The position numbers were made by a program, and so were the translations under genes. From an uncultured Thiotrichaceae bacterium (GTDB taxonomy: Bacteria > Pseudomonadota > Gammaproteobacteria > Thiotrichales > Thiotrichaceae), in the NCBI GenBank assembly GCA_902727985.1, contig CACVAY010000027.1:1-42171 (forward strand): a DNA stretch of 42,171 nucleotides, read 5' to 3'. A model generated the notes under the pieces. That model was given only the letters and a program-made list of their open reading frames with translations. It ran no database searches and was not told the origin of the DNA. Positions 8,048-16,141 of the stretch are shown one piece after another (the first letter of the stretch is position 1; every line of letters begins with the position of its first letter).

Positions 8048-9292
8048 CTATGCCTTTTTACTTTTCTTCTTTTTCGACACTTTATTTCTTTTTGTCTTTT
8101 TCTTTTTATCTTTTTTTGCAGAATTTGGCGCCGAAGGTGCTTTTGCAGCAGCTTCAAAACCTTCAACACGTTCACGTTCCAAGCGCATACCTATACGTTT
8201 TTCGATGACATCAAAATGAGCGTATTCGTGGTGTGCAATGAGTGAAATCGCCATCCCCGCATTGCCAGCTCTTCCCGTCCTTCCAATACGATGGGTGTAG
8301 TCATTCGGCTCACGGGGTAATTCATAGTTAATCACGCAAGGCAGAGCCTCGACATCTAAGCCTCGTGCTGCGACATCCGTACAAATCAGCACTCTGGCTT
8401 TGCCTTCTTTGAACTTCTCGATGGCTTCGCTACGCACTTTTTGCGGCAAGTTGCTATGCAAGACTGCAACATCGTCATGCTCTTCTGATAATTCACGATA
8501 CAGTTTGCTACAAGACTTCTTTGAAGTTGCGAAGACTAACACTTGTTTCCAATCTTCAGTCTCAAGCAGATGTTGCAATAGCGCGAGCTTCTTACCACGA
8601 TTAACGGTTACTACGCGCTCTTCTATACGCTCTTCAGTTGTGTCGTCAATATTGATAATGACAGGTGCATCAAGCAACTCACGAACGAGCCAACGAATGC
8701 TATCGGGAAGGGTTGCCGTAAAAAGTAAACTTTGGCGCTCTGGCGGAAGTTCTTCCAGCACACGCTCCAGCTCTTCTTTGAAGCTTTTCGATACCATGCG
8801 GTCAGCTTCATCAACAATCACCGTTCTCAACTTATCGAATTTGATCGCCTTATTTTCCAGCATGCGCATAACACGAGCTGGCGTTGCCACCAGTACTTCT
8901 GAGCCTGTGGCCAGATTACGAATTTGTGATTCAAGATCGACACCGCCATACACTGCTTTACAAGTCATCTTTGGATAGATGCGTTGCGCGAAGAACAATG
9001 TCTCATCACGCACTTGCTGTGCAAGTTCTCGCGTTGGGACCAGTATAAGGGCTCGAACATGATTGCCTTTCCCCCAATTCACACCTGACTTTGCGCGTTG
9101 CAAGATCAGTTTTTGTAGTAAAGGCAATAAATAGGCAATGGTTTTTCCAGAGCCTGTTTCGGCTCCCACCAGCACATCTTTCCCTTCTAAAATCTCGGGA
9201 ATAGTTTTCGCCTGTACATCGGTAGGCTTAGTGAATCCCTTCTCTTCAATCGCTTTGGTTAAAGCAGTTGCAAGTTGAAACTTGGTAAACAA
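8048..9292 (-). CDS. DEAD-box ATP-dependent RNA helicase with Lys-rich tail
   Basis: 414 residues with a full superfamily 2 motif set: Q motif (FTKPTDVQ), motif I (AETGSGKT), Ia (PTRELAQQ), II (DEAD), III as TAT instead of the usual SAT, and VI (HRIGRTGRAG). The tail from about residue 390 is almost entirely Lys/Ser and probably binds RNA. The start is a TTG at 9290-9292: the frame is closed by a stop six codons upstream and contains no ATG there, and AGGA lies ten bases before the TTG. Such helicases unwind RNA in ribosome assembly or mRNA decay. I cannot assign it to SrmB, RhlE, RhlB or DeaD with confidence. Confidence 0.9.
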   Translation of the reverse strand: MFTKFQLATALTKAIEEKGFTKPTDVQAKTIPEILEGKDVLVGAETGSGKTIAYLLPLLQKLILQRAKSGVNWGKGNHVRALILVPTRELAQQVRDETLFFAQRIYPKMTCKAVYGGVDLESQIRNLATGSEVLVATPARVMRMLENKAIKFDKLRTVIVDEADRMVSKSFKEELERVLEELPPERQSLLFTATLPDSIRWLVRELLDAPVIINIDDTTEERIEERVVTVNRGKKLALLQHLLETEDWKQVLVFATSKKSCSKLYRELSEEHDDVAVLHSNLPQKVRSEAIEKFKEGKARVLICTDVAARGLDVEALPCVINYELPREPNDYTHRIGRTGRAGNAGMAISLIAHHEYAHFDVIEKRIGMRLERERVEGFEAAAKAPSAPNSAKKDKKKKTKRNKVSKKKKSKKA

Positions 9293-9697
9293 ATGACTTT
9301 CATCCTGTAATTAACACCTGAGTACAAGGTAGCTTCAGGCTAAAGTGTGTTTGATGGTTATATAACATGACTAGCAACAACCATTTCTTCTGAAAAACTA
9401 TCGAATAAGCCTCAAGCTCTATGGTTTTCGCTCGAAATCAAACTCTCTACAAACATTATTATGCGCTCAAAATCATTAGGTCAACCTATCATTTCTTGTC
9501 AAAGATTTTCAGGAGCGATATTGTCCGCTTTTTTTAGATAGGAATTGCTGTTAGCACCTGTGCCATTACACGATTACTGGTAACAACGATGGTATTTACA
9601 TTGAATGCAATCGTTGTTGCTTGATACACTTTTTGTCTTTTGACGCACTTTATGATTCCAGCGATGATAGCTTCTTTACAAATCTACAGGCTCGATA
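9293..9697. other. 405-bp intergenic region between divergent genes
   Basis: No open frame worth calling. This stretch holds the leader of the minus-strand DEAD helicase and the upstream region of the plus-strand channel gene. The only clear structure is a perfect 9-bp inverted repeat (9582-9590 and 9610-9618, AACAACGAT/ATCGTTGTT) with a 19-base loop and no T-run after it. It is more likely an operator or leader hairpin than a terminator. No strong sigma-70 boxes were evident. Confidence 0.4.
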
Positions 9698-10126
9698 ATG
9701 TTCGCTACGTTACTTATTAATATAGTGCTTGTTGCGGCCGTCGTGATGATTCACTTCGAAATGTTGAACCGCTTATCTCGACATTGCCCAGTATTGGCCC
9801 CTATAAAAGCGCGTCATCGAGTGGTTATATCCGTCTTTATTGCCTTGTTTGCCCATGTCATTGAGATCTGGCTATTTGGTCTGGCTTATTATTGGATGAT
9901 TGCTGAGGGAAGCCTTGGCTCTCTGGCTGGAAACTACCACCACAGCATCATGGACTCGGTTTACTATTCCTTTACCAGTTTCACAACCTTAGGTTTTGGC
10001 GACATTGAACCTACGGGAGCCATTCGCTTTGTCACAGGTATGGAGGCACTAACTGGGCTAGTACTGATCACATGGACTGCATCTTTCATTTTTATTGAAA
10101 TGCAACGCTACTGGAAAGATACCTAG
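9698..10126 (+). CDS. Small two-pore-helix type (Ion_trans_2-like) ion channel protein
   Basis: 142 residues. Hydrophobic segments lie at about 3-20, 42-65 and 115-135. Between the last two is a pore-loop region with the filter-like sequence TLGFGD (residues 97-102), preceded by SFTSFTT. This matches potassium-channel filters of the T-x-GFGD class. There is no C-terminal RCK domain, so any gating would be intrinsic or supplied by another protein. The ATG follows an AGG about eight bases upstream. Convergent with the rhodanese gene (17-nt gap). Ion selectivity is inferred from the filter only. Confidence 0.8.
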   Translation: MFATLLINIVLVAAVVMIHFEMLNRLSRHCPVLAPIKARHRVVISVFIALFAHVIEIWLFGLAYYWMIAEGSLGSLAGNYHHSIMDSVYYSFTSFTTLGFGDIEPTGAIRFVTGMEALTGLVLITWTASFIFIEMQRYWKDT

Positions 10127-10143
10127 ATATTTATTTCAGCGAC

Positions 10144-10596
10144 TCAACGTTTTGCAATCGCTCTGCCTTCTGAATACCAATGAGTAATACCTTTTTCGAC
10201 GTTATAAACCGTTGGATATCCTAACTGGGTTTTGATCATGAGTGAGCCAACTTGAGTACGATTACCCGTACGACAAATCAAAGCAACTGGTTTGTCAGTT
10301 GGCGCTACACGTTTGAGTTGAGGGATCAATTCAGGATTGATCGAACCATCTTTCATAAAAAAAGTGACTTTCTTACTGCCGGGAATAACACCTAATGACC
10401 ACTCTTCAGGACGACGAATATCCACCAAGGTTACATTCTTATCCATCAAGACCTGTAGCTCCTGATTATTGATATTCACAATGCCCTTTCCAGATGGAAC
10501 TGCGCTATCCGTGCCTTTGTCTACTGGGGTGGATGTACATGCTGAGATCACTAGAAAGGCCAAAGCCAGTAATCCAGTATTCATTATCTTTTTCAT
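10144..10596 (-). CDS. Rhodanese-domain lipoprotein
   Basis: 150 residues. The N-terminus is a lipoprotein signal with lipobox VISAC (Cys20), so the mature protein should be membrane-anchored on the periplasmic side. A single rhodanese domain spans about residues 40-148, with the conserved DIRRPEEW segment and an active-site loop CRTGNRT (Cys108). Rhodaneses carry sulfane sulfur as a cysteine persulfide; the physiological donor and acceptor are not visible. GAAAGGAT lies just upstream of the ATG. A REP-like repeat (10616-10686) sits immediately 5' of the gene. Confidence 0.9.
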   Translation of the reverse strand: MKKIMNTGLLALAFLVISACTSTPVDKGTDSAVPSGKGIVNINNQELQVLMDKNVTLVDIRRPEEWSLGVIPGSKKVTFFMKDGSINPELIPQLKRVAPTDKPVALICRTGNRTQVGSLMIKTQLGYPTVYNVEKGITHWYSEGRAIAKR

Positions 10597-10615
10597 TTTT
10601 CCATCCTTTCTCTAT

Positions 10616-10686
10616 GGAAGCTCTGATTAAGTCTACTTTCTCTGGAATCGGGACTTTAGTCCCGCTCTTCGTAGTTTATTTTCAAT
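10616..10686 (+). repeat. Dispersed palindromic REP-like repeat, copy 1
   Basis: The core is a perfect 7-2-7 palindrome at 10649-10664 (CGGGACT-TT-AGTCCCG) preceded by GGAAT. It lies inside a longer conserved stretch that begins GGAAGCTCTGATTAAGTCTA and ends GTAGTTTATTTTCAAT. The whole unit recurs inverted at 18038-18106 and in diverged form at 31491-31585. It lies between two minus-strand genes and encodes nothing. Confidence 0.85.
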
Positions 10687-10699
10687 ATGATTCACTCGC

Positions 10700-12568
10700 T
10701 CAGGATTCGAAAACATCTTGACCTTGCGCACATGCAATGACTTTGTCATCTTGTGTCCCTTCAGGAAACTCCTGTGAAACGACCCATACCTGAGAAATTA
10801 TCTCACTAATATTCGGCAATTGTTCTAGCGTTGTTACTGTCCGCTCGTGATCGAAAAATGCAAAAGGTTCATCAAGTATAATGAACTGGTGTTCATTATC
10901 ATTGTTTTTCGCAAGTTCCTCCGACATCGCGATACGTAGTGCCAGCATAATTTGTCGCTGGGTTCCTGAAGAAATTTCATCGAAGTCCATGAAATCATTT
11001 TTCTCCTCCGAGAATACCGCAACATTCAACTGCTCATCAATCTTTACATTCTTGTAATGTTGATTGGTGAAGTACGGCAAAATTCTGGCTGAGGTCTTCG
11101 ACACAGATTGATTAAACTGTTCGGTCAAGTCTTTTGCTGAACGTCTTAACAGCTCGACCCCCGTGGTCTGTACTTTAATATTCATTGAATGCTCTTGCAT
11201 GCTTTGATCGAAGCCATCAAGCGTCCTTTTCAATTGCGCTGCCTCTGCCGTGCGCGCTATTTCCAAATCAATCTCTTGATTAAGTTCGGTGTTTCGATAG
11301 TTGATGTCACGCCCTTGGTCTTTTAATCGAATATGTAAGGCTTTCGCAGATAAAACGACTCTTTCATTTTCGGCTGTGTAGGTTTTGATATCCTCTGATA
11401 ACGTTTCCAGTTTATCTTGGTTACCCTCATCATCACCCAAAAGCATTTTTATACCTTGCCCTCTAGCATCAAGATAAGAGGCACACCGTACAGGCACCAT
11501 GCTTTCTATATCCGCAGTTATTATTCTCTGCCCATCCATCAAATTATCGGCAAAGGCATTGGCTGTTTGCCGGAGTGGCTGGAGCTCTTGATCCTCAATG
11601 CGCCAACTCCACACCATCCCGATAAAAAACAAAATCGCTAATCCGGCACTGAATAACGACATCCATTCTTCACTCCATGTTTTGAAGACCTGATAATCAA
11701 ACCAGGCATCAGGAGAGGTAAGTGCTTCGGTTTCTTCTGGTAAAAAAACCATGACGCCCCATGCCATCAGTGATGCGATGAGCAACGCCAATAAAATATC
11801 ACTAATCACTCTTACAAACCCGTACCTCCCTTTAGCCTTTAAATAGTACGACCTGTTAGTGGCATAAGAATCCGATGCATTTTGTAGATTATTCGCTAAG
11901 CTTCCCCCCGTTTCTTGGGTTGTTTCCAAAGTTTCGCGTGCATCAACCAGCTCTGGCAACCACGTATCATCAATATTGAGCGTTTTCAACTCATGATAGA
12001 TTTCTTCATATTTGGGACGCAAGTCTAATAGCGCCTGATTATCTCTTTCATTATCGCGAAGAAAACCATTACTAACACGCGAATATTCGCTGATCCCCAC
12101 CATATCCTTGATACTTTCACTATCTGGATTCGGTGTTGATAGCTCACGCTGTACTAAATAGAAAGAATCAGAAAACGTGGGATAGCCATATCCAAGGATT
12201 TCTTTCAACTTCTCTTCAGCTTCTTTGGGCGTATCTGCAATCATATCCGCCTTATTCTCATTGAATAATTGCGCATCAACCGAACCATTTTCATTGATAA
12301 TCCGAATGAGCTGATAGGTGTCTTGATCTTTGGTAAAGGTCAACATCACAGAAGCACTTTTAGCTCCCCAATGAATCAATTTACCCGCATTATCCTCATC
12401 AGTCAGATAAGTTCTGCCGAACAACGCAAAACTTAAGGCATCGGCAATACTCGTTTTACCCGATTCATTCGAACCACTCACCGTGATTAACCCCCTTTCC
12501 GGGATATCACGCAATTCAAGTTTTTTATATTTACGGAAGTTCTCAGCAGTAAGCGCATTGATAATCAT
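10700..12568 (-). CDS. Membrane-anchored SMC/RecF/YhaN-like ATPase
   Basis: 622 residues with the two halves of an ABC-type SMC/Rad50 ATPase. The N-terminal half has Walker A GSNESGKT (residues 32-39). The C-terminal half has a signature-like SSGTQRQ (about 530) and Walker B FIILDEPFAFFD (about 566-578). The middle, which in Rad50 is a long coiled coil, is short and contains two strong membrane helices (about 247-272 and 296-320) flanked by coiled coil. Bacillus YhaN has a comparable idea. The ATG overlaps the stop of the upstream 65-aa gene (ATGA, 12565-12568), so translation is coupled. No Mre11/SbcD-type nuclease gene is adjacent. A DNA- or membrane-linked role is plausible, but the substrate is unknown. 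Confidence 0.85.
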   Translation of the reverse strand: MIINALTAENFRKYKKLELRDIPERGLITVSGSNESGKTSIADALSFALFGRTYLTDEDNAGKLIHWGAKSASVMLTFTKDQDTYQLIRIINENGSVDAQLFNENKADMIADTPKEAEEKLKEILGYGYPTFSDSFYLVQRELSTPNPDSESIKDMVGISEYSRVSNGFLRDNERDNQALLDLRPKYEEIYHELKTLNIDDTWLPELVDARETLETTQETGGSLANNLQNASDSYATNRSYYLKAKGRYGFVRVISDILLALLIASLMAWGVMVFLPEETEALTSPDAWFDYQVFKTWSEEWMSLFSAGLAILFFIGMVWSWRIEDQELQPLRQTANAFADNLMDGQRIITADIESMVPVRCASYLDARGQGIKMLLGDDEGNQDKLETLSEDIKTYTAENERVVLSAKALHIRLKDQGRDINYRNTELNQEIDLEIARTAEAAQLKRTLDGFDQSMQEHSMNIKVQTTGVELLRRSAKDLTEQFNQSVSKTSARILPYFTNQHYKNVKIDEQLNVAVFSEEKNDFMDFDEISSGTQRQIMLALRIAMSEELAKNNDNEHQFIILDEPFAFFDHERTVTTLEQLPNISEIISQVWVVSQEFPEGTQDDKVIACAQGQDVFES

Positions 12569-12762
12569 GCTTTACTCTCCTTCCCTTTCGATTCAAACTG
12601 CTCGATGATACGCCTAACTGCCGCCTCATAAACCTCTGGTTCAAGAACCCCCAGCTTCTCAAGATCCTGAATATCTTCTTTGCAAAATACTGCAAACCTT
12701 CTCGCTACATTGGTTGACAGTGTATCTTCATCGAGCCATTTCAAATTATTCGTAGATGCCAT
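12565..12762 (-). CDS. Small 65-aa protein coupled to the SMC-like ATPase
   Basis: 65 residues, charged, predicted mostly helical, with one Cys (residue 27) and a Lys/Glu-rich C-terminus. I recognise no family. Its stop codon overlaps the ATPase start by four bases, which argues that it is a real gene and that the two products work in fixed ratio. The ATG at 12760-12762 is preceded by only a weak AGG. The operon promoter should lie in the 116-bp gap shared with the divergent thioredoxin-like gene. Confidence 0.7.
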   Translation of the reverse strand: MASTNNLKWLDEDTLSTNVARRFAVFCKEDIQDLEKLGVLEPEVYEAAVRRIIEQFESKGKESKA

Positions 12763-12878
12763 CCGAGAGCCTATTGGTATTTGATTCTATTAAGTTGACG
12801 CAGTATAAATTAGAATGCAGCAACACCCAAAGAAACATCTGAAAAATCAACATTTCATTCGTAACAAGGCCTCTTACT

Positions 12879-13223
12879 ATGCCGATTATCCTGAAAATTG
12901 ACGAGTTCATCTTCCATCATAATTTGCAGGACACAACAGGGCCCGCGCTCGTCTTTTTTACAGGTATACATTGCGGAAGCTGCCACCATCTCCGCCGAGT
13001 ATTAGAAAAGATGCTGGAAGAGCATTTAGACATCACGGTATTTGAAGTTGATGCGGGCATTTCACCCAGTTTAGTTAATGAATATGCGATTTTTCATTTA
13101 CCAAGCATGTTGCTTTTCAACAATGGAAATTTTCACTGCTACCTACATAGTGAGCCACTGCCCCAGAAAATTTATGCGGCCATTCAAGCTGCTCTGCAAC
13201 ACCCTCCAGAAGAAGAGCCATAG
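12879..13223 (+). CDS. Thioredoxin-family protein (CGSC active site)
   Basis: 114 residues with a thioredoxin fold pattern: strand (ALVFFTG), active-site CGSC (about residues 32-35) at the head of a helix, then the cis-Pro segment HLPSMLLF. There is no signal peptide, so it should be cytoplasmic. It resembles the thioredoxin-like product at 39546-39869 in length and layout (CGVC there), so the two look like paralogs. It is divergent from the SMC-like ATPase operon. A small inverted repeat (13214-13219 and 13228-13233) spans the stop codon but lacks a T-run. Redox partner unknown. Confidence 0.85.
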   Translation: MPIILKIDEFIFHHNLQDTTGPALVFFTGIHCGSCHHLRRVLEKMLEEHLDITVFEVDAGISPSLVNEYAIFHLPSMLLFNNGNFHCYLHSEPLPQKIYAAIQAALQHPPEEEP

Positions 13224-13441
13224 ATGCGGCTCTACAATGTGTAAGTCCTATATTTATTTAAAATAGTTTAAAAACAATGGATTTGAGTTATACAAAAACA
13301 AATTTGAACTATACACTTCGACCTTAAGGAATCTCTAGGGCACATAAGCAGTCACTATATGCAACAACTTAACAGAATCCCCCCAATATAAGTGCTTTAT
13401 CAATCTGCTACATAACTTATAACAACCATCACGGAAAGATA

Positions 13442-14308
13442 ATGGAGCCATTAACAATTTTGCAGCAGCAACTGATTGATATAGCACGCGCAGGTGTTGC
13501 CATATTGCCACAGCTATTGATTGCAACAATTATAATCGCCACTACGTACCTGCTTAACTTAATGCTTCGCTCGACGATTAGACGGCTTCTCAAAAAATCT
13601 CGTATGCGCCCAAGCTTAAAAAACTTGCTGGAGCTCCTAACAACACTGGGTATTTGGACTTTAGGCATTATGATTGCCGCAATCATTGCTTTTCCTAACC
13701 TAACGCCCACTAAAATTCTTGCTGGACTTGGCATTGGCTCTGTTGCCATCGGTTTTGCATTTAAAGATATTTTCGAAAACTTTTTGGCAGGCATTATTAT
13801 CCTTCTTAGGAGAGAAATGCGGATGGGAGATTTCATCGAGTGTGAGGGCATGGAAGGCAATGTTGAAAATATTCTTGTCCGTGAAACCCATATTCGCCAA
13901 ACAGACGGCCAACTAGCCATCATTCCCAATAGCTTACTGTTTAAAAATCCGGTGACGATTCGCACTGATCTCGATGAACGCCGCACCACTATTATATGCG
14001 GAATTGCTTACCGCGAAGATATCGACCAAGCTAGAGAAGTCATTACCAAGGCCATTCAATCCTGTCCAACTGTCAGGAAAGATAGTCGACCCATCCAAGT
14101 CTTTGCACAGGAATTCGCAGATTCTTCGATTAACTTTGAAGTCACTTGGTGGACTGGCTCGAAACCTGTCGACATCAGAGGTTCACGTGACGAGGTCATT
14201 ACGGCGATAAAAAGCGCGCTAGATAATGCTGATATTGAAATACCATTCCCTTATCGCACACTTACATTCGCGGAACCCGTAAAAGTTGTTCGCAAAGACG
14301 CTAGCTAA
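13442..14308 (+). CDS. Small-conductance mechanosensitive channel, MscS family
   Basis: 288 residues. N-terminal membrane helices lie at about 20-45 and 65-90. The pore-lining helix (about 95-125) carries the Gly/Ala pattern GLGIGSVAIGFAFKDI and continues into the MscS beta domain (RMGDFIE...; IPNS near 160) and the alpha/beta C-terminal domain. Length matches the short MscS class (E. coli MscS is 286). Such channels open on membrane tension and release solutes on hypo-osmotic shock. GGAAAG lies a few bases before the ATG. It starts a plus-strand run with the CPA1 antiporter (33-nt gap) and the SLC13 transporter. Confidence 0.93.
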   Translation: MEPLTILQQQLIDIARAGVAILPQLLIATIIIATTYLLNLMLRSTIRRLLKKSRMRPSLKNLLELLTTLGIWTLGIMIAAIIAFPNLTPTKILAGLGIGSVAIGFAFKDIFENFLAGIIILLRREMRMGDFIECEGMEGNVENILVRETHIRQTDGQLAIIPNSLLFKNPVTIRTDLDERRTTIICGIAYREDIDQAREVITKAIQSCPTVRKDSRPIQVFAQEFADSSINFEVTWWTGSKPVDIRGSRDEVITAIKSALDNADIEIPFPYRTLTFAEPVKVVRKDAS

Positions 14309-14341
14309 GTCTCCTTTCATTCCGAAATAAGGACGTTTCAA

Positions 14342-16141
14342 ATGCACCATCATTACGCTGAAATATTGGCCTCCATTCTCGTTGCTGGCGTCATTTTACA
14401 ATGGGTTGGTTGGCGCTTACGCATTCCAGGCTTAATTCTGCTTATTCTTGCAGGGTTTATTATGGGGCCAGCCACTGGCTGGTTGGATCCCTCGAAAGAC
14501 TTTGGCGACATGCTACAACCCATGATCTCACTGAGCGTCGCCGTTATTCTGTTTGAAGGCGGACTAAATCTTCAATGGCATGAGTTTCGTAAAAATAGCC
14601 GAATCATTTACCGCCTAGTCAGCTTGAATGTCATTATCAGTTTTATGCTGGCTAGTTTAACCGCACATTATCTAGTCGGTATGGATTGGCCAGTAGCACT
14701 AGTGCTGGGTTCCATTATTATTGTCACAGGGCCAACAGTGATCATGCCACTTTTGAAACAGGCTAACCTCAAAAACCAACCCGCTGCGCTACTTCGCTGG
14801 GAAGGTATTGTCAATGACCCAATCGGTGCCCTGCTGGTCGTATTGATCTATGGTTATTATGTTTATGCGGAAAGCAATTCACTTATTACAGATGTATTGG
14901 GTGGTCTTGGCCTGAGCTTGTTGGTGTCTCTCTTATTGGGCGTGGGGAGTGGTGTACTTTTAGCAAAAGCATTCAAGCGCGGGATGGTGCCAGAGTACCT
15001 CAAGTCGCCGCTTATTCTGGCAACTGTATTGCTCGTATACACCCTCACAAATCGAGTACAGGGTGAGGCTGGCCTATTAGCAACCACTATTCTCGGTATC
15101 ACGCTCGCTAATCAAAAACTGGATACATTACATGAGTTAAAACGTTTCAAAGAATATGTCACCATTTTACTGGTTTCCTCTACCTTTATTGTGCTCACAG
15201 CAGATATTGACCCCGCTATTTTACTAAAACTTGGCTGGGAGGGTTGGACCCTCATCGCTTTGCTCATATTCGTAATTCGTCCCTTATCGATCTATTTTTC
15301 CACCATAGCGACTGGCATCAAATGGCAAGAACGATTGCTTCTGGCCTGGATAGCACCACGAGGCATTGTTGCCGCAGCGGTTGCCGGACTATTTGGCGCA
15401 CAGCTTGTAACAAAAGGCTATGCAGGGGCAGAACTTTTACTTCCCATCATTTTTGCACTGATTCTTTTGACCGTACTATTGCATGGTTTGAGTATTGGCT
15501 GGATTGCCCGCCGATTGGGGCTAGCATCTGATAAACCAGAAGGAATTATCCTCATTGGAGCATCCCCCTGGAGCATAGAATTAGCCACAACCTTACAAAA
15601 GTATGATATTCCGGTTCTCTTAAATGATACGTCGTGGAAGCGCTTACTTCCTGCGCGTATGCAAAATATTCCAACCCACTATGGCGAAATTCTCTCAGAA
15701 CGCACCGAGGAAGTGTTAGAGCTTGCACATATCACTAAATTAGTCGCACTAACGCCAAACGAAGCCTATAACACACTTGTATGTTCTCGTTTTGCTCCGG
15801 AACTTGGCCATAACAATGTGCGTGAGATTGGTTGGCAACGCGAAAAAGATTCCATTGAACCTACCGTTTCTAAAATCCCTAGCCAAGCTATACGGGGTTA
15901 TTCGGCTTTTGGTGACAAACTTTTCTATGATGACTTTACTCAGCTTTACTCTGAAGGATGGCGCTTTCAGAGTACACGTTTAAGCGAAAAGTTTTCCATG
16001 CCAGAATTACTTGAACAAAAACCTTCCGAGTTAAAAGTTATTGGCTTTATTGATCAAGCCAAGAAAGTCTGGTTTTATCCATATAGAGACGACAGGCAGC
16101 CAGAAGATGATTGTGTTGTTATTACGTTTGTGCGTGAATAA
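14342..16141 (+). CDS. CPA1-type Na+(K+)/H+ antiporter (NhaP-like) with C-terminal RCK-like domain
   Basis: 599 residues. About 12-13 membrane helices fill residues 5-395, including the CPA1 hallmark GIVNDPIGA with Asn158-Asp159 and the earlier FEGGLNL. From about 398 a soluble Rossmann-like RCK/TrkA-N-type domain begins (GIILIGASPWSIELA), followed by a C-terminal extension of about 100 residues. RCK-like domains usually sense nucleotides or ions. AAGGA precedes the ATG. The gene lies 33 nt after mscS and 77 nt before an SLC13 transporter, which suggests a shared response to salt or pH. Confidence 0.9.
   Translation: MHHHYAEILASILVAGVILQWVGWRLRIPGLILLILAGFIMGPATGWLDPSKDFGDMLQPMISLSVAVILFEGGLNLQWHEFRKNSRIIYRLVSLNVIISFMLASLTAHYLVGMDWPVALVLGSIIIVTGPTVIMPLLKQANLKNQPAALLRWEGIVNDPIGALLVVLIYGYYVYAESNSLITDVLGGLGLSLLVSLLLGVGSGVLLAKAFKRGMVPEYLKSPLILATVLLVYTLTNRVQGEAGLLATTILGITLANQKLDTLHELKRFKEYVTILLVSSTFIVLTADIDPAILLKLGWEGWTLIALLIFVIRPLSIYFSTIATGIKWQERLLLAWIAPRGIVAAAVAGLFGAQLVTKGYAGAELLLPIIFALILLTVLLHGLSIGWIARRLGLASDKPEGIILIGASPWSIELATTLQKYDIPVLLNDTSWKRLLPARMQNIPTHYGEILSERTEEVLELAHITKLVALTPNEAYNTLVCSRFAPELGHNNVREIGWQREKDSIEPTVSKIPSQAIRGYSAFGDKLFYDDFTQLYSEGWRFQSTRLSEKFSMPELLEQKPSELKVIGFIDQAKKVWFYPYRDDRQPEDDCVVITFVRE

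Follow-up and report, generated by a model that had tools for sequence, protein, structure and literature searches.

A membrane-anchored Rad50-like ATPase with a 65-residue partner: a candidate nuclease-free offshoot of the SbcE-SbcF branch

In Mre11-type nucleases, the helix-loop-helix that binds Rad50 sits towards the C-terminus of the protein. A membrane-anchored version of such a nuclease-ATPase couple is the SbcE-SbcF (YhaN-YhaO) type of Bacillus, reportedly introduced by Krishnamurthy et al. in 2010, with an SMC/Rad50-type head, two transmembrane segments in the middle of the ATPase and an upstream partner gene; we take the two-segment trait as a mark of this family from the homologues collected here (Clostridia, Chloroflexota, Actinomycetota and archaea) and from general knowledge. 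In this study we describe a gene pair within a 42,171-nucleotide stretch of an uncultured Thiotrichaceae bacterium (contig CACVAY010000027.1; the whole stretch is called the window below) that shares these three features, yet its partner gene encodes a 65-residue protein and not an Mre11-like nuclease. We read the pair as a nuclease-free offshoot of the SbcE-SbcF branch, in which the small protein would be a docking remnant and the complex a non-cutting DNA clamp or tether, and we give this reading a probability of roughly 0.6. The anatomy and the origin of the small protein as proposed are highly probable in our estimate, while the odds that clamping or tethering DNA is the job of the pair seem even, DNA binding being presumed from kinship. 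As for the described systems, SbcEF has been implicated in double-strand break repair in a report that calls its role poorly characterised (PMC6452273), yhaN and yhaO of B. pumilus appear among lexA/SOS genes (PMC3896406), YhaN is tabulated as a predicted membrane protein in a surface-shaving study of S. haemolyticus (PMC7137321), and the Rad50-binding motif of Mre11 in complex with Rad50 is cited as PDB 3QKU (PMC8824468). The pair consists of:

12565 to 12762, minus strand: gene for the 65-residue partner, ATG start, a predicted free-standing helix-loop-helix with probable kinship to the C-terminal tail of SbcF/Mre11-type nucleases
10700 to 12568, minus strand: gene for a 622-residue Rad50/SMC-like (SbcE/YhaN-like) ATPase with a mid-protein transmembrane hairpin, ATG start
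12565 to 12568, minus strand: ATGA overlap of the two genes, four common bases

The original prediction had proposed a two-gene unit from the ATGA overlap and had seen no Mre11-type nuclease gene nearby, and both points held. The overlap likely reflects translational coupling, and no Mre11-type nuclease was found among the six neighbouring open reading frames (ORFs) scanned with Pfam (window 8048-16141). Homologues of the ATPase have the small gene beside them at nearly all loci: directly upstream at 32 of 34 loci of a first set, the remaining two being cut by contig ends; at 21 of 23 class-wide loci (20 by profile, with L113 weak at E 0.014, and L115 by eye); and at 44 of the 47 best named loci from a collection of genome contigs (L117-L163; 43 by profile, L156 by eye), the other three having no upstream sequence. 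These three sets share some genomes. At the class-wide locus L116, the small upstream ORF is unrelated in appearance. The two genes usually overlap by up to about 10 bases or leave a gap within 10 bases; exceptions among the 43 are L148, whose open frames overlap by 44 bases, and L159 and L138, with gaps of 67 and 97 bases; in the class-wide set they are L097 (a gap of 97) and L112 (125 or more).

The ATPase was matched in 37 of 57 genomes, the window's own included, one match (G039) being short and weak. Within the window's own family it was present in 34 of 36 genomes, in some as contig-cut fragments, and in the class-wide sample in 27 of 274 genomes (20 of 222 genera). The genome-contigs collection gave no match when the single ATPase protein served as query; searched with alignment A3 it gave at least 154 confirmed matches, and the best 80 of these, which were used, come from Thiotrichaceae, Thiothrix, Sedimenticola, Thiodiazotropha, Chromatiaceae, Magnetococcales, Planctomycetota and Binatia. 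The ATPase is near-fixed in the window's family and sporadic in other Gammaproteobacteria, Magnetococcales, Planctomycetota and Binatia.

The next-best 28 loci (L169-L196), with archaea, Clostridia, Chloroflexota, Rubrobacter and others as hosts, mostly have a different partner. An upstream gene for an Mre11/SbcD-like phosphoesterase was found at 20 of them (17 by motif; L172, L175 and L183 by eye); at the other eight none was recognised, some of these having little upstream sequence or very weak matches. Most of these genes adjoin the ATPase gene, and a few seem shortened or lie up to about 1 kb off. In the pairs of L171 and L178, Pfam recognises the expected Metallophos and SMC-type ATPase domains. 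An Mre11-like phosphoesterase was found by motif in the stored flanks of none of the 52 loci L117-L168. We provisionally take the nuclease-partnered relatives to be of the SbcE-SbcF type of Bacillus, an assignment made by layout and general knowledge. Two mid-protein hydrophobic segments, 0-12 residues apart, occur in 18 of 19 nuclease-partnered ATPases. The membrane hairpin itself is not new, being common to SbcE/YhaN-like ATPases of archaea and other bacteria; the original prediction that membrane helices replace the hinge was right about the segments, but the swap is shared with ATPases that keep a nuclease partner. The new part is the probable identity of the small partner as a nuclease docking tail. 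Among openly licensed papers, within the top results of long lists, we found none that describes a membrane-anchored Rad50 whose partner is a bare docking domain.

The 65-residue protein was modelled by AlphaFold2 as a two-helix hairpin with a mean predicted local distance difference test score (pLDDT) of 75:

12652 to 12711, minus strand: helix 1, residues 18-37
12577 to 12639, minus strand: helix 2, residues 42-62

It has been called a protein of unknown family, and indeed no significant Pfam, NCBIfam or PADLOC family was found (best Pfam E 0.13), nor did a PDB search with the small-protein profile give a credible match; yet it resembles the Rad50-docking C-terminal tail of a nuclease. On the upstream-nuclease alignments, the best place for the small-protein profile is the last 45-48 or so columns, where almost its whole length is aligned. 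Profile comparison gave P 0.0007-0.0094 in first tests; with 37 nucleases and with the divergent planctomycete ORFs described below left out, P was 0.0022, or 7.2e-4 on dense columns, and it fell to 1.4e-4 once these ORFs were added to the small-protein profile. The score of 29.1 (26.0 without the divergent ORFs, and 29.2 at most) compares with maxima of 19.5 over 277 windows from unrelated families and the ATPase, 18.8 over 150 column shuffles and 18.6 when reversed. In the opposite direction, we built a profile from the final 58 residues of the 37 nucleases and ran it on 12,242 ORFs, which include 97 known small proteins; ranks 1-13 all went to small proteins (best E 0.017). With a non-clostridial tail profile, the small ORF before the L166 ATPase came first (E 0.012); all of the ten top matches but the fifth, which is unrelated, were small proteins or small ORFs before the ATPase. 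In a length-matched control, 18 of the top 20 matches to the nuclease tail were small proteins, the strongest result of 137 windows.

Intermediates came from two planctomycete surveys, which gave divergent small proteins before the ATPase (e.g. ...SPLEEL... and ...RPPLEEFR...). Their profile matched the nuclease profile at P 3.5e-5 with a probability of 72%, and two smaller nuclease sets at P 5.5e-5 and 5.2e-4. It also matched residues 338-383 of the 385-residue nuclease L226 with 20.6 bits (E 5.9e-7 among 37 sequences); the L226 genome is related to that of a Bathyarchaeota metagenome-assembled genome (MAG). Moreover, the planctomycete small proteins and many nuclease tails open helix 1 with P-[LIV]-x-E-[LF]. 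On the basis of profiles, intermediates and gene position, we consider the 65-residue protein a probable relative of the tail that ends SbcF/Mre11-type nucleases, and the sequence evidence for this kinship is of moderate strength.

Several observations weigh against our reading of the pair. No single pairwise match of the window's 65-residue protein is significant alone, a fold search with its model gave no match, and the hhalign probability is 13-26% without the divergent planctomycete ORFs. Nucleases other than L226 reach at most 9.6 bits against the divergent profile, and coupling between paired columns was not enriched at the base of the coiled coil. Among 127 unrelated control windows the best drew 12 small proteins into its top 20 (76 drew none), and the nuclease's own N-terminal window drew 11, so that part of the enrichment is a general property of helical profiles. 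At one class-wide locus (L114) the ATPase lacks the small gene, no transitional gene (a nuclease with its tail before a small-type ATPase) was seen among the loci surveyed, and DNA binding by the pair is assumed from Rad50 kinship. The ready cross-matching of short helical profiles, together with the low hhalign probability and the missing fold match, would suit an unrelated two-helix adaptor that took the slot of the lost nuclease, its tail likeness being a convergence of short amphipathic helices that bind a Rad50-like coil. We hold this to be unlikely, since the score stands far above all 427 null comparisons and is placed at the extreme C-terminus of the nuclease, the helix 1 start is shared, and the small gene occupies the same position as the nuclease gene.

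A tree of ATPase heads agrees with descent from the nuclease-partnered branch. It holds 56 rows and was built by a quick method with support from the Shimodaira-Hasegawa-like approximate likelihood ratio test (SH-aLRT) only; its SbcC outgroup has a very long branch, and it leaves out 15 rows whose heads the motif pattern missed (L138 and L146 of the small type and 13 others), 11 loci set aside for truncation, breakage, redundancy or too great a distance, and other rows shorter than 480 residues. The 41 rows in which a small partner was recognised all fall into a single branch (SH-aLRT 99), adjoined by four planctomycete rows with divergent small ORFs, and eight nuclease-partnered rows lie outside it. 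Because the small-partner heads form one branch with the nuclease-partnered heads outside, a single swap of the nuclease for a bare docking domain explains the tree sample. In two planctomycete pair-carriers (G312 and G313), no SbcF-type profile match was found at E 1e-10. Over 16 pair-carrying genomes, a count that leaves out G099 (no ATPase match), the best match to this profile is partial and scores 146 bits, against 301-490 bits for full SbcF-type genes. Perhaps, then, the nuclease was lost in one ancestral event, leaving a stand-alone Mre11 docking domain and a non-cutting Rad50 that tethers or senses DNA at the inner membrane in several phyla; for this wider account, we see the chances as balanced.

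The ATPase is intact in both halves, as the original prediction had stated, with all three head motifs present and conserved (positions assigned by eye):

12452 to 12475, minus strand: Walker A GSNESGKT, residues 32-39, with G32, N34, E35, G37 and K38 invariant in alignment A5
10952 to 10975, minus strand: ABC signature region ISSGTQRQ, residues 532-539, conserved in homologues
10865 to 10885, minus strand: Walker B FIILDEP, residues 562-568, with D566, E567 and P568 invariant in alignment A5

Pfam matched AAA_23 (1e-13) and SMC_N (1.5e-13), and the nearest solved sequence relatives in a PDB search are Rad50 chains (best E 5.1e-16). The AlphaFold2 model, made from 44 sequences, has a mean pLDDT of 90.1 and a predicted template modelling score (pTM) of 0.66, with long helices across the middle, and its top Foldseek match is 5dny_D, from an Mre11/Rad50-DNA complex (E 3e-17). 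The pair resembles Mre11-Rad50 and SbcCD in its Rad50-type head and in a small partner that recalls the docking tail of Mre11-like nucleases; it differs by the lack of a nuclease subunit, by a short, membrane-anchored arm and by the absence of a CxxC zinc hook motif from the 622-residue ATPase. No CxxC occurs in 41 of the 47 ATPases of L117-L163, and the other six have one each, never between the two membrane segments. With SMC, MukB and RecN, whose features are given here from general knowledge, the ATPase shares the head, a coiled coil and the SMC_N match, whereas it has membrane segments in the place of the hinge, a far shorter coil and no recognised kleisin-like partner.

The arm of the ATPase carries the following membrane features:

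11741 to 11797, minus strand: transmembrane segment 1, residues 258-276, mean Kyte-Doolittle 2.64
11663 to 11740, minus strand: inter-segment loop, residues 277-302, predicted periplasmic from its low K+R content relative to the flanks
11606 to 11662, minus strand: transmembrane segment 2, residues 303-321, mean Kyte-Doolittle 1.91

The two strong segments noticed at first sight in this protein are conserved in its homologues. Neither of the two outcomes that would have overturned the original prediction, loss of these segments or of the adjacent small gene in homologues, came about. When the best segment pair was sought in residues 220-480 of 94 paired homologues (83 distinct), both segments scored at least 1.5 in 85 and at least 1.2 in 93. 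The loop between them has a median length of 28 residues, as compared with the 0-12 of SbcE-SbcF-like relatives. Its mean K+R fraction is 0.048 against 0.284 and 0.237 in the flanks, and it lies below the flank mean in all 94 homologues; this positive-inside pattern indicates a hairpin with both head halves in the cytoplasm. Sequence and structure prediction thereby show an ATPase arm that ends in a predicted transmembrane hairpin in place of a zinc hook or hinge, with its head halves cytoplasmic and the arm on the inner membrane, so the earlier view of a membrane ATPase was well founded.

On our reading, the 65-residue protein would be what remains of an SbcF/Mre11 subunit, namely the Rad50-docking helix-loop-helix without the phosphoesterase and capping domains. 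It may dock beside the head, govern the ATPase and stabilise the head and arm, and two ATPases would clamp DNA in the ATP-bound state. As a tether, a damage sensor or an entry sensor, the complex could then hold or sense DNA at the inner membrane and leave it uncut. The base of the C-terminal coil is better conserved than the remaining coil (entropy 2.43 versus 2.82-3.01), which fits docking of the small protein there, and the column coupling speaks neither for nor against it. If this is true of the pair, it would be a natural and conserved separation, in several phyla, in which the ATPase is kept with a docking domain of some 65 residues and has no nuclease gene alongside. It would let one ask what Rad50 does without the Mre11 nuclease, which is hard where both form one machine, and the 65-residue protein would give a minimal partner for studying how docking helices control the Rad50 ATPase. 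It also makes the membrane anchor of the SbcE branch worth notice, and suggests that a machine of DNA repair has become a non-cutting tether or sensor.

The pair might instead still cut DNA, using SbcD or another nuclease in trans. In fact, the window's genome has SbcD-like and SbcC-like genes elsewhere, adjoining each other on a different contig, the SbcC-like one with a CPVC motif. Still, the phosphoesterase profile A4, which was not optimised for SbcD and could overlook it, found nothing at E 1e-6 in four of 16 pair-carrying genomes, and the place of SbcD's docking tail would already be taken by the small protein. Cutting in trans thus appears improbable to us.

The genes around the pair are clade-specific: guaA in three congeners, trxA-rho at 11 loci, and tolB-pal-cpoB-like genes at six to seven loci (clusters C8-C10). 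The last of these, with the pair downstream in up to seven loci, and the outer loop that exceeds that of nuclease-partnered relatives would be expected if the ATPase served the envelope, its heads acting on membrane or cell-wall processes through the hairpin without DNA and the small protein regulating them. However, the nearest relatives in sequence and fold are DNA-binding Rad50s, and the neighbours vary by genus, therefore tol-pal is no constant partner; an envelope role for the pair seems doubtful. No constant genomic partner beyond the pair was found in the neighbourhoods compared.

The original prediction had also raised a defence module, for which we found no support. In favour of an anti-phage system like Lamassu, Gabija or Dnd, the ATPase matches the MADS, PbeC, LmuB and AriA models of PADLOC (best 1.8e-17); most of these matches span the shared head only. 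One LmuB model covers residues 1-569 at 1.5e-12, but we recognised no gene for the partner that a system of this kind would have. Twenty neighbours of the class-wide loci have mostly metabolic, regulatory and housekeeping Pfam names, and include a patatin-like protein, a MoxR-type protein and two without a family. Five of them gave PADLOC matches, and in Pfam the same proteins are Aminotran_5, a MoaA-type radical SAM protein, PrmA, AAA_2 and OmpA, so that these matches are generic paralogy. No plasmid (72,556) or phage (50,697) record matched the ATPase at E 1e-8. A defence-island setting was rejected on these grounds: mostly everyday neighbour families, generic PADLOC matches and no plasmid or phage records. 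With Lamassu LmuB, PbeC, DndD and MADS the ATPase shares a common ABC/SMC head and profile matches, yet no effector nuclease gene was recognised. Given also the near-fixation in the window's family, a defence role is very improbable.

Next to the pair in the window, a gene at 10144-10596 on the minus strand, 3′ of the ATPase gene, encodes a predicted lipoprotein with a rhodanese domain, and rhodanese-type genes also lie 3′ of the ATPase in four congeneric loci (L031, L032, L033 and L059; cluster C19). On the other side, a thioredoxin-like gene (12879-13223, plus strand) is transcribed divergently to the pair; other genera have trxA and rho upstream, on the strand that carries the pair. Scans for promoters and terminators gave fewer sites than shuffled sequence did.

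The ATPase itself varies in the collected loci. Two family members, G031 and G007 (L060:8278-10191 and L061:8501-10348), have degenerate surroundings of the ABC signature or Walker B, and are possibly ATPase-dead versions. Open frames of about 1,090 residues at L151:409-3690 and L152:307-3582, in MAGs labelled Lamprocystis and Rubrivivax, join the ATPase to a long extension and have identical small proteins, which is either a binning mix-up or a fusion. Finally, next to a short form of about 590-660 residues there is a long form of about 720-790, with about 100 additional residues ahead of membrane segment 1 (L106-L116, L142, L145, L148, L150, L154-L160, L162-L164 and L166), and one MAG yields both a short form (L140) and a long one (L148).

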